Below are positions 8,938-12,045 of a stretch of 64,000 bases of DNA, piece by piece. Every line of letters begins with the position of its first letter. Within the stretch, counting starts at the first letter, position 1. Below the pieces are notes generated by a model. The model was given only the letters and a program-made list of their open reading frames with translations. It did not search any database and had not been told where the DNA came from. A program made the translations under genes and the position numbers. The stretch spans positions 1 to 64,000 of the forward strand of contig CADWAF010000148.1 in assembly GCA_902984215.1 (NCBI GenBank), read 5' to 3'. Source of the stretch: Willaertia magna (Eukaryota > Heterolobosea > Eutetramitea > Acrasida > Naegleriidae).

Positions 8938-9990
8938 ATGTCTGAACAACAACAATCCACAACTTCCTCTAATAGTGTTCCTTCCGAGGTTAACGGTATT
9001 GCAGTTGGTACTCAAGATGGTTTTATTCGTCTTTATCATCATGTACCAAGAAATCAAAAACATGATTTTGATAGTGACCCAACAGGATTATTATTAGGAC
9101 ATACTAAATCAATAAGTGCATTATATAGTAATGAAACACATTTACCAAATTATATTTGTTCAGGAAGTTGGGATTGTGATGTTAGAATTTTTAATCAAAA
9201 AACAATGAAATGTCTTTTTAAATTAACTAAAAAAGCACAAGGAGAAGAAGATGTTAAAGAAATAATTGGAGGACACACAATGGAAGTAGCAAATATCAAT
9301 TCTTTTATGAAGGATTCAATTCCATATTTAGTTACAGGTGGATTAGATTGTCAATTAAAAATATGGCAAATTGAAAATGACAATGTTACATTAAAAAATT
9401 CATTTATTCCAAAAGATGGAACAATGGAATGTTCTATTTGGTGTTCTTCATTTACAAAAGATAATAAATTCTTTATTGGTGGATTACAAGATGGTACAAC
9501 TAGAGGTTTTGATCTAGAAACAGGTAAATTAGTTTCTAGATTTAAAATTCATTCAAATTCAATAAGAAAAATTTTAAATATTCCAACAAATGAAAAGAAT
9601 CTTTTAATTACTGCATCTTCTGATAATTCTATTAAAGCTGTTGATTTACGTGCTAATCAAATTGCATTTCGTTTTGATAATACTCAAAATAGTGGTATGA
9701 TGGATATTGCTTGTTTAAATGATTCTTTATTTGCTGTTGATACAACTGGAAGTATAAAGGAATTAAGTTTGAAAATGTTAAGTGAAAAGAATACTGCTAA
9801 AACAATTGTAAATCAAGTTAAAACTGCACATCGTGGTGTTATTACATCTGCTCTTTTACATAAAGGTTTATTATTTACAGGTGGAGGTGCTGACAAGGTT
9901 GTTAAAGTATGGGATATTAGTAAGAGTTTGAAATTATTACATACTCTCAATTTACAAGATGGTGTATTTGCTTTATCTGGATTACAATAA
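8938..9990 (+). CDS. WD40-repeat protein
   Basis: Intronless 350-residue protein that is nearly all WD40 propeller. Blades are visible as VGTQDGFIRLYHH, SGSWDCDVRIFNQK, TGGLDCQLKIWQI, IGGLQDGTTRGFDLETG, TASSDNSIKAVDL, VDTTGSIKELSL and TGGGADKVVKVWDIS, so seven blades closing on themselves. The first 15 residues are Ser/Gln-rich and disordered. The start follows an A-run. No extra domain is present, so I cannot assign it to one orthologous group; a scaffold role is the general expectation for single-propeller proteins. Confidence 0.85.
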   Translation: MSEQQQSTTSSNSVPSEVNGIAVGTQDGFIRLYHHVPRNQKHDFDSDPTGLLLGHTKSISALYSNETHLPNYICSGSWDCDVRIFNQKTMKCLFKLTKKAQGEEDVKEIIGGHTMEVANINSFMKDSIPYLVTGGLDCQLKIWQIENDNVTLKNSFIPKDGTMECSIWCSSFTKDNKFFIGGLQDGTTRGFDLETGKLVSRFKIHSNSIRKILNIPTNEKNLLITASSDNSIKAVDLRANQIAFRFDNTQNSGMMDIACLNDSLFAVDTTGSIKELSLKMLSEKNTAKTIVNQVKTAHRGVITSALLHKGLLFTGGGADKVVKVWDISKSLKLLHTLNLQDGVFALSGLQ

Positions 9991-10046: not shown

Positions 10047-10328
10047 ATGAGTATTTATTGCAAAGAAATGTCTAAAGAAGAGGAAGCTATTCTAACAGTA
10101 GAAGTACCAAATGATGACAATGAGGGAGTAGCGGAAGATAAAGAGACTTATTATATAGCTTCTCAAAAAGAAAAGTTTTTGAATTGGTTAATGAAAAAAC
10201 ATCCAAAACTTTATTTCGTTTTAGATGAAGCTTGGTGATATTTAAAAAACGCTTTTTGTTGTTTCTTTTTTGTTCCTTTAATTATTGTGGCTATTATTGT
10301 CATTTTGATTTTTGTGATTATGAAATAA
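10047..10328 (+). CDS. Candidate small membrane selenoprotein (in-frame TGA)
   Basis: Short gene not matching any family I know. Reading from ATG 10047 (MSIYCKEMSKEEE...) gives 63 acidic residues ending FVLDEAW, then an in-frame TGA at 10236-10238. The same frame continues YLKNAFCCFF followed by FVPLIIVAIIVILIFVIMK and TAA at 10326-10328: a perfect C-terminal membrane helix. With TGA read as selenocysteine the product is 93 residues, Sec at 64, at the membrane edge. No AG acceptor lies between the TGA and the helix, so an intron cannot explain the join. A SECIS-like hairpin begins about 20 nt after the TAA. Alternatives are stop readthrough, a recent nonsense mutation, or chance. Sec machinery has been reported in Naegleria (established knowledge); its use here is inferred. 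Confidence 0.65.
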
Positions 10329-10348
10329 TACAATTACTTGAGATTATT

Positions 10349-10436
10349 TAACAAACATTTCAATGACGATCAACTTGAACAAATAATTGGTTTTTGTAAA
10401 ACCTCTTTCACTTTGATCTGAAAATAATGTTTGTTG
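10349..10436 (+). promoter_or_regulatory. SECIS-like hairpin in 3' UTR
   Basis: Hairpin with the layout of a eukaryotic selenocysteine insertion element. Helix I pairs 10350-10359 with 10426-10435 (10 A-U/G-C pairs, no mismatch). A small internal loop follows, then ATGA at 10363-10366 faces TGA at 10419-10421, giving the tandem G.A quartet. Helix II pairs 10368-10373 with 10413-10418, then after a 2x2 mismatch 10376-10379 with 10407-10410. The A-A expected 10-12 nt after the quartet is at 10378-10379, or the AAA at 10381-10383 in the apical part. An extra mini-stem (10379-10383 with 10393-10397) would make a long, type-2-like apex. Found by eye; not folded or scored. Confidence 0.55.
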
Positions 10437-10494
10437 TTGACAGTCAAAATAAAAATACCGAAAAACAACATTAATAAAAAAAATTAAAAAAAAA

Positions 10495-12045
10495 ATGTCT
10501 TCTACTAGTAGTGTTGTCGGTAATACTGATGACAACAATAATGGTTTAGAAATTAAAAAGAATTATAACTTTACAGTTTTTAGAGGAAAGCAAGAAGAAA
10601 ATAATCAAATTGAAAAGAAAAGAAATGAATTATCTCTTAAATATGAAAATAATAAAATGTTAACAAATGAAGAAATGAAAGAAATTGCAAAAGAATTTGA
10701 TAATTTGGATGAATTAAAGGATTTTAGAAAAGAATTTAATTTTCCAACAGAAATACCTGAAATTGAAATGTCAAATGTCAATAATATTATTTATTTTTGT
10801 GGTAATTCATTAGGATTACAACCTAAACAAACATCAGAATATATTCAAAGAGAATTAAATAAATGGAGTTCAATGGCAGTTGGTGGACATTTCACAGATA
10901 AAAACAAAACAATTAAATGGTTTGAAGGAGATGAACCATTAAGAGAAACCTTTAAGAAAATTGTTGGAGCTAATTCAGTTAATGAAATTACAATTATGAA
11001 TTCTTTAACTGTAAATTTACATTTATTATTATCTACTTTTTATAAACCAGTTGGAAAGAAATGTAAAATTTTAATGGAAGAATATCCATTCCCATCTGAT
11101 ATGCATGCTGTGACATCACATTTATTAACTAGATATATTAATAATAAGGATTGGATAAATAAAGAAGAAGGAAATGATAAACTTTGTATGGAAGATTACA
11201 TTTTATTAGTTGGTCCTAGAAAAGGTGAGAATTTTATACGTTCTGAAGATGTTATCGAATGTTTAAGAGAAAATCATGAAGAAATTGCATTATCTTTAAT
11301 TGGTGGTGTACATTTCCTTAGTGGTGTATGTTTTGATATGAAATCAATTGCTAAAACATGTAATGAATTAAATATTGTATGTGGAATGGATTTAGCTCAT
11401 GCCGTTGGTAATGTTCCTTTATATTTACATGATTGGAATGTTGATTTTGCATGTTGGTGTAGTTATAAATATTTAAATGGTGGTCCAGGAAATCTTTCTA
11501 TGATTTATGTTAATGAAAAGTATTCTAAAAAGAGTATGGAAGAATTACCTAGATTTATTGGTTGGTTTGGAAGAGATGCTAAGAGTAGATTTACTTTGGA
11601 TACTGTCACTTTTGATTTACGTGAAGGAGCTGGAGGTTTTCAAATTTCAAATATTTGTCCATTTAATGTTGCATGTTTATTAGCTAGTTCAGATGTTTAT
11701 GATAAGGTTGATAAACAATTCCCTAATGAAAGTATTATGGAAGTATTAAGAAGAAAATCTGTTAAATTGACAAATTATTTAGAATGGTTATTAGAAAAAG
11801 AAATTAATGAGAGTATTTTGGAAATTTTAACACCAAAAGATACAACGAAGAGAGGCTGTCAATTATCAATTAGATTAAGAGGAATAGATTCAGAATTTGT
11901 TAAACATCAATTGTTCAAGCGTCATATAATTGTAGACACAAGAAGACCAGACGTAATTAGAGTTGCTCCAGTTCCACTTTACAATCAATTCATGGAAGTA
12001 TATGAATTTGTAATGGCATTAAAAGAAGTAATAGCAAATAAATAA
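10495..12045 (+). CDS. KYNU: Kynureninase
   Basis: PLP enzyme of tryptophan breakdown that cleaves kynurenine or 3-hydroxykynurenine to anthranilate products plus alanine. Intronless, 516 residues. Seen in order: IIYFCGNSLGLQPKQT, the W-x-x-MAVGGHF loop, GANSVNEITIMNSLTVNLHLLL, MEEYPFPSDMHA, ALSLIGGVHFLSG, the cofactor Asp in GMDLAHAVGNVPL, the Schiff-base Lys in CSYKYLNGGPG, then GWFGRD, FQISN and DTRRPDVIRVAPVPLYNQF. All catalytic features are present. The N-terminal 45 residues are a Lys/Asn-rich extension. Starts at an ATG preceded by an A-run, shortly after the SECIS-like hairpin. Confidence 0.95.
   Translation: MSSTSSVVGNTDDNNNGLEIKKNYNFTVFRGKQEENNQIEKKRNELSLKYENNKMLTNEEMKEIAKEFDNLDELKDFRKEFNFPTEIPEIEMSNVNNIIYFCGNSLGLQPKQTSEYIQRELNKWSSMAVGGHFTDKNKTIKWFEGDEPLRETFKKIVGANSVNEITIMNSLTVNLHLLLSTFYKPVGKKCKILMEEYPFPSDMHAVTSHLLTRYINNKDWINKEEGNDKLCMEDYILLVGPRKGENFIRSEDVIECLRENHEEIALSLIGGVHFLSGVCFDMKSIAKTCNELNIVCGMDLAHAVGNVPLYLHDWNVDFACWCSYKYLNGGPGNLSMIYVNEKYSKKSMEELPRFIGWFGRDAKSRFTLDTVTFDLREGAGGFQISNICPFNVACLLASSDVYDKVDKQFPNESIMEVLRRKSVKLTNYLEWLLEKEINESILEILTPKDTTKRGCQLSIRLRGIDSEFVKHQLFKRHIIVDTRRPDVIRVAPVPLYNQFMEVYEFVMALKEVIANK

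Follow-up and report, generated by a model that had tools for sequence, protein, structure and literature searches.

The window analysed here, that is, the whole 64,000-nt stretch of DNA, probably contains a real SECIS element together with a gene for a tail-anchored selenoprotein of 93 aa that belongs to no described family. Results of our analysis indicate that a TGA stop codon located just before the membrane anchor of this protein is most likely read as selenocysteine (Sec), and that this reading is directed by a hairpin downstream. The novelty would lie in the protein, as the UGA-Sec mechanism is already known. Only rarely is a new family of selenoproteins found, and the selenoproteins of heteroloboseans have hardly been charted. 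The interpretation of the locus as a selenoprotein gene, put forward in the original prediction, is supported by the Sec-decoding trait of the organism and by the match of the hairpin to the SECIS elements of two thioredoxin reductase (TrxR) genes of the same genome, which includes signature bases that were not part of that prediction.

The candidate ORF and the hairpin lie inside the 504-nt interval between a WD40 protein gene and a kynureninase gene, both of the same strand (Table 1). The positions given in the original prediction are all exact to the base. The in-frame TGA is followed by 29 open codons, which encode YLKNAFCCFFFVPLIIVAIIVILIFVIMK, and the frame is closed by the TAA at 10326-10328, so that an in-frame UGA is followed by an open frame up to a later stop, as expected of a eukaryotic selenoprotein gene. 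The hairpin, which had been placed about 20 nt past this TAA, starts with its helix I 21 nt downstream of it, and the distance from the TGA to the ATGA of the hairpin is 127 nt.

Table 1. Coordinates of the candidate gene, its putative SECIS element, the neighbouring genes and the elements compared with it (positions without a prefix are those of the window)
Feature	Position	Strand	Remarks
Upstream neighbour, WD40 protein	8938..9990	+	ends in TAA
63-codon N-terminal part	10047..10235	+	acidic start, then helix; codon log-odds +16.1
Start codon ATG	10047-10049	+	alternative start ATG at 10068
In-frame TGA, proposed Sec codon 64	10236..10238	+	
29 open codons and TAA	10239..10328	+	Cys pair, one very hydrophobic helix, two-residue tail (putative tail anchor)
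Putative SECIS element	10350..10435	+	built like the TrxR elements L032:1341-1415(-) and L030:1319-1411(-)
Helix I	10350-10359/10426-10435	+	10 perfect pairs
Quartet	ATGA 10363-10366 opposite TGA 10419-10421	+	
Internal loop	AATGAC 10362-10367 opposite TGAAAAT 10419-10425	+	
Helix II	10368-10373/10413-10418, plus 10376-10379/10407-10410	+	
Unpaired AAA near apex	10381-10383	+	
Apical mini-stem	10389-10394/10398-10403	+	6 bp, GGTTTT/AAAACC; form 2 SECIS
Downstream neighbour, kynureninase	10495..12045	+	starts 60 nt past the putative SECIS element
TrxR SECIS element, C108	L032:1341-1415	-	z -3.48, 0/200 shuffles as stable
TrxR SECIS element, C706	L030:1319-1411	-	z -0.79, 42/200 shuffles as stable
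SECIS-like element, C326	L077:1482-1585		signature shared; helix I of 14 pairs; z -3.23, 0/200
ORF and element, C326	L077:1238-1585 = G000:C326:15537-15884		

The hairpin has the architecture of form 2 SECIS elements, with a non-Watson-Crick NTGA/GA quartet between two helices and a mini-stem above an AA bulge. It folds as originally drawn: the element alone (10349-10436) reaches -18.6 kcal/mol with a z-score of -3.74, and none of 200 shuffled sequences is as stable, while in the wider stretch of 121 nt (10330-10450) z amounts to -1.84 and 10 of 200 shuffles are as good. According to the general SECIS rule, as given in an excerpt of PMC2375036, the unpaired AA is located 10-13 nt past the NTGA and 15-39 nt before the GA. 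In the candidate, the distance of 36 nt from the AAA to the facing TGA falls within the latter range, and the distance from the ATGA to the unpaired AA (14 nt) exceeds the former by one nucleotide. The relevant spacing in two TrxR elements of the same genome is 14 and 15 nt, and in the Dictyostelium SECIS pattern the corresponding value works out at 12-14 (same excerpt of PMC2375036). A point against the candidate is that Rfam SECIS_1 does not match its hairpin. Since this model misses both TrxR elements of the same genome as well, it cannot decide here, and we rejected it as an arbiter. A covariance model built from the elements themselves was dropped, because MAFFT does not align their helices.

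The two TrxR genes, one on contig C706 and the other on C108, terminate with TGC TGA GGA followed by TAA and TAG, which reads Gly-Cys-UGA-Gly-stop and corresponds to the Gly-Cys-Sec-Gly end of large TrxR. Their SECIS elements provide a yardstick from within the genome, a soft one in the case of C706, where the element is no stabler than its shuffles and the centroid fold is devoid of helix II. A generic scanner, which requires helix I and a closing helix II in addition to GA, unpaired AA and either AUGA or GUGA, identified a single element per 3' region in the candidate, TrxR C108 and TrxR C706, and the minimum-energy folds of these three elements follow a common plan. The signature AAUGAY...AA...UGAAAAW is common to the candidate and both TrxR elements. 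When an element found on contig C326 is included, all four carry AAUGAY in the 5' arm and UGAAAAW in the 3' arm, the distance from the ATGA to the unpaired AA is 14-15 nt throughout, and the internal loops measure 8/7 nt in the candidate, 8/9 in C108 and 7/7 in both C706 and C326; the sequences of the helices differ. The elements of Dictyostelium SECIS, according to an excerpt of PMC2375036, share extra bases of their own, which is a precedent for a signature specific to a lineage. A further TrxR-like stretch, spanning the part absent from C108, is present on contig C536 (L031, L036).

A search of the assembly (19.24 Mb in 894 contigs) for genes of the Sec-decoding pathway revealed SelD (L010) as the rear part of a fusion with a NifS-like desulfurase. 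It contains the motif GLGCGCK, which we take to be the Sec/Cys site of SelD, occupied here by Cys. EFsec was found in pieces, the first of which has the solved eEFSec as its best match, and the eukaryote-specific domains euk_SelB_III (8.8e-20) and eEFSec_4th (1.9e-16) were recognized. SelD, EFsec and one of the TrxR genes seem to be split by introns. N. gruberi and Acanthamoeba are described as having NifS-SPS (NifS-SelD) fusions (PMC4561486, in excerpt), and the TrxR of N. fowleri likewise has a UGA and a SECIS (PMC8038987, in excerpt). The Rfam model of tRNA-Sec gave 44 matches in the 19.2 Mb assembly, the best 8 of the 44 being all tRNA-Ser; a pattern search of the assembly gave four, and there was no tRNA-Sec among the three examined. 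SepSecS was not found in the assembly either. We take the missing tRNA-Sec and SepSecS as gaps of the assembly or of the methods, or as divergent genes. The SelT/SelW/SelH family (PF10262) was not found in the genome, and none of the 10 GPx matches in the genome contains an in-frame stop. Because the NifS-SelD fusion, EFsec and two UGA-ending TrxR genes are present, the organism very probably uses selenocysteine. Of the Sec machinery, for which the original prediction had referred to Naegleria, SelD and EFsec were found here in addition to the UGA-containing TrxR, and tRNA-Sec and SepSecS were not. The reference to Naegleria was itself only roughly right: the closest named match of the neighbouring kynureninase in a protein search is that of Naegleria gruberi, with 54% identity, so that the organism is a relative of Naegleria, though probably no close one, and likely a heterolobosean.

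How often a comparable hairpin occurs by chance depends on the filter applied. The generic SECIS filter gave 31 matches in 6.0 Mb of shuffled DNA (both strands), which is about 0.33 per window, and two matches in the real window, namely the candidate and one within another reading frame. With the TrxR signature combined with the fold and helix I, a match was found in 6 of 1200 shuffled windows, and the candidate was the only match in the real one. Two of these six shuffled matches have a helix I score of at least 18, and the candidate belongs to this stronger class. Positions up to 150 nt downstream of a TGA-ended, read-on ORF (one of no fewer than 50 codons, with the frame staying open for 20 codons or more past its TGA before the next stop) account for 750 of the 128,000 strand positions, a number to which the candidate itself contributes part.

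Genome-wide, the pattern AATGACG...AA...TGAAA occurs 93 times as compared to 109 times in a reversed control, and by itself is no commoner than chance; three of the 93 matches passed the fold test, i.e., the candidate, TrxR C108 and C326. The pattern AATGAY...AA...YTGAAAAW occurs 227 times vs. 73 times in the reversed control, an approximately threefold excess over the whole assembly, which we suppose to stem from codon composition. Among 101 of its occurrences (100 of the 227 matches, as listed, and the C706 element added by hand), five passed the fold test: both TrxR elements, the candidate, C326 and C151:30812. The last of these (G000:C151:30812-30883) has a weak SECIS-like inner fold of -5.7 kcal/mol. 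Both patterns were designed with the candidate in view, and therefore its presence among the matches is no evidence; the evidence is the fold test among the pattern matches, plus the shuffles. In 299 kb examined with the generic filter, 11 rows were obtained, of which three represent the candidate, two TrxR C108 and one TrxR C706, while the remaining ones comprise one further site twice and three further sites once each. These four further sites either fall inside open frames or run antisense to TrxR-like sequence, and none of them contains UGAAAA, so that we regard them as chance matches.

The best surviving alternative, unlikely in our opinion, is that the TGA is a true stop, in which case a 63-aa orphan protein would be followed by a T-rich 3'UTR that is open for 29 codons and by a hairpin resembling SECIS by chance. 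An open run of this length would occur about once in 12 times by chance, according to a rough estimate from base composition, and past the TGA the codons are not used as in coding sequence: the tail has a codon log-odds of -7.8, a value so low that just 0.9% of coding windows reach it. With amino acids held fixed, the codon choice of the tail scores -0.85, with lower scores in 12.5% of coding windows and in more than half of noncoding ones, and all of the 116 overlapping coding windows of membrane-like composition score at least as high as the tail. Codon usage was thus discarded as support for the tail, as neither of the two tests supports coding; the score of the N-terminal part also becomes neutral (0.36) when amino acids are held fixed. 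However, TGA serves as a terminator in only 6 of 118 ORFs of at least 150 aa, one of these six being the Sec codon of a TrxR; the 118 ORFs were defined mechanically and some may end in introns, and TGA is a rare stop in this genome. In addition, the maximal 19-residue hydropathy of the tail (3.54) ranks first among 4156 open, overlapping noncoding windows, ahead of a second-best value of 3.14, and a true stop would leave to chance the agreement of the hairpin with the SECIS signature of its own genome, the frequency of which in shuffled windows is given above.

A true stop is also consistent with the fact that no relative that might share the tail turned up in our searches. No homologue of the 93-aa product was detected in 5.8 billion proteins or in viral contigs, nor in prokaryote genomes, where none was expected, and the N-terminal part has no paralogue within its own genome. 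In line with the original statement that the protein belongs to no known family, there is no match to it in Pfam at E<=1, SelK and SelS included, and in NCBIfam there is only a chance-level match to TraM (0.067). For so short a protein, these negative results mean little. In the open literature on heterolobosean or Naegleria, protist-membrane and tail-anchored selenoproteins, titles and the beginnings of abstracts contain nothing on this gene, and neither does an excerpt of PMC11459619.

The chances are considerably smaller that the SECIS is real and the product misdrawn, so that an unseen exon, another start or splicing would make the 93-aa protein partly wrong. The apparent introns of SelD, EFsec and one TrxR gene would fit this, as would the stop-to-stop frame of the candidate, which comprises 104 codons and is thus open upstream of the ATG too. 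On the other hand, the 504-nt interval is bounded by two genes with a common orientation, and inside it the hairpin comes straight after the TGA-interrupted ORF. The WD40 gene upstream ends in TAA and therefore has no use for a SECIS. As had been pointed out in the original prediction, there is no AG between the TGA and the TAA (the next one is at 10341), and hence no splice acceptor there. Readthrough of the UGA without Sec, whether through reassignment, through a leaky stop or because a sense codon (e.g., TGG) was misassembled, is very improbable: while TGA is rare as a stop and the codon preceding it in the candidate is TGG, a SECIS would be superfluous, both TrxR genes carry TGA at the known Sec site and other ORFs still end in TGA.

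The short gene between the WD40 and kynureninase genes would, according to the selenoprotein reading, which we prefer, encode a protein of 93 residues. The hairpin 127 nt downstream of the UGA would act as a form 2 SECIS, recruiting a SECIS-binding protein and EFsec with Sec-tRNA, and the ribosome would read the UGA at codon 64 as Sec. The predicted protein would begin with a flexible, acidic stretch followed by a helix. Sec64 would come just ahead of the membrane, Cys71-Cys72 would sit at its interface, and the C-terminus would form a membrane anchor, past which only two residues remain. An anchor of this kind suggests that the protein is inserted post-translationally and that Sec faces the cytosol. 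A single-sequence AlphaFold2 model, with Cys in place of Sec, has a mean pLDDT of 68.7, a disordered start and helices at residues 32-51 and 53-92; in this model, which is of modest value, Sec64 lies within the predicted helix 53-92 that continues into the membrane anchor. With a selenol and a neighbouring Cys pair close to the membrane, the protein probably has a redox role, in thiol/selenol chemistry at the membrane surface and perhaps in disulfide exchange with a partner. If so, Sec and the Cys pair would be the only plausible redox residues near the membrane, and selenium chemistry would take place at its surface.

The element on contig C326 passes both fold tests and is absent from the output of the generic scanner. 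The ORF that precedes it (L077:1238-1447) reads MVL-Sec-LIISLVEYLFAKC... to TAA, with the TGA as codon 4; with this TGA as U, the product starts with MVLULIISLVEYLFAKCTGREP.... Profile searches assigned it to no family and a protein search found no homologue. It is possibly a second orphan selenoprotein, although the TGA could be intronic, a possible intron being GTATTG...TACAG. It is tempting to speculate, and we consider it a real if somewhat doubtful prospect, that at least two orphan membrane selenoproteins are peculiar to this heterolobosean lineage, the candidate having its Sec where a tail anchor meets the cytosol and C326 having its Sec at codon 4, with a hydrophobic stretch right after it. 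The SECIS elements of both would share the lineage-specific loop NAAUGAY/UGAAAAW and a reach to the apical AA longer than the textbook one, so that standard SECIS models would miss the set. The shared signature offers a ready search rule for heterolobosean genomes, while the Rfam SECIS model and a strict spacing rule of 10-13 nt can miss such elements.

Among known selenoproteins, SelK and SelS are small and have one membrane helix, which precedes Sec, with Sec near the C-terminus and outside the membrane. The candidate resembles them in its small size, single membrane helix and Sec outside the membrane, but differs in the position of the helix, which follows Sec. The TrxR of the same genome have a comparable distance from the UGA to the ATGA (122 nt in C706 and 101 nt in C108, as compared to 127 nt in the candidate); they are, however, large enzymes with a penultimate Sec, whereas the candidate would be a membrane protein of 93 aa in which no known domain was recognized. 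The SECIS of Acanthamoeba TrxR is described, in an excerpt of PMC8038987, as type 1, in contrast to the form 2 hairpin of the candidate. The membrane selenoprotein MSP of Dictyostelium and green algae is similar to the candidate in being a membrane selenoprotein of narrow distribution, in this case in unicellular eukaryotes and Volvox; by its description in an excerpt of PMC2375036, it is set apart by two Sec residues, as opposed to the single one proposed here.
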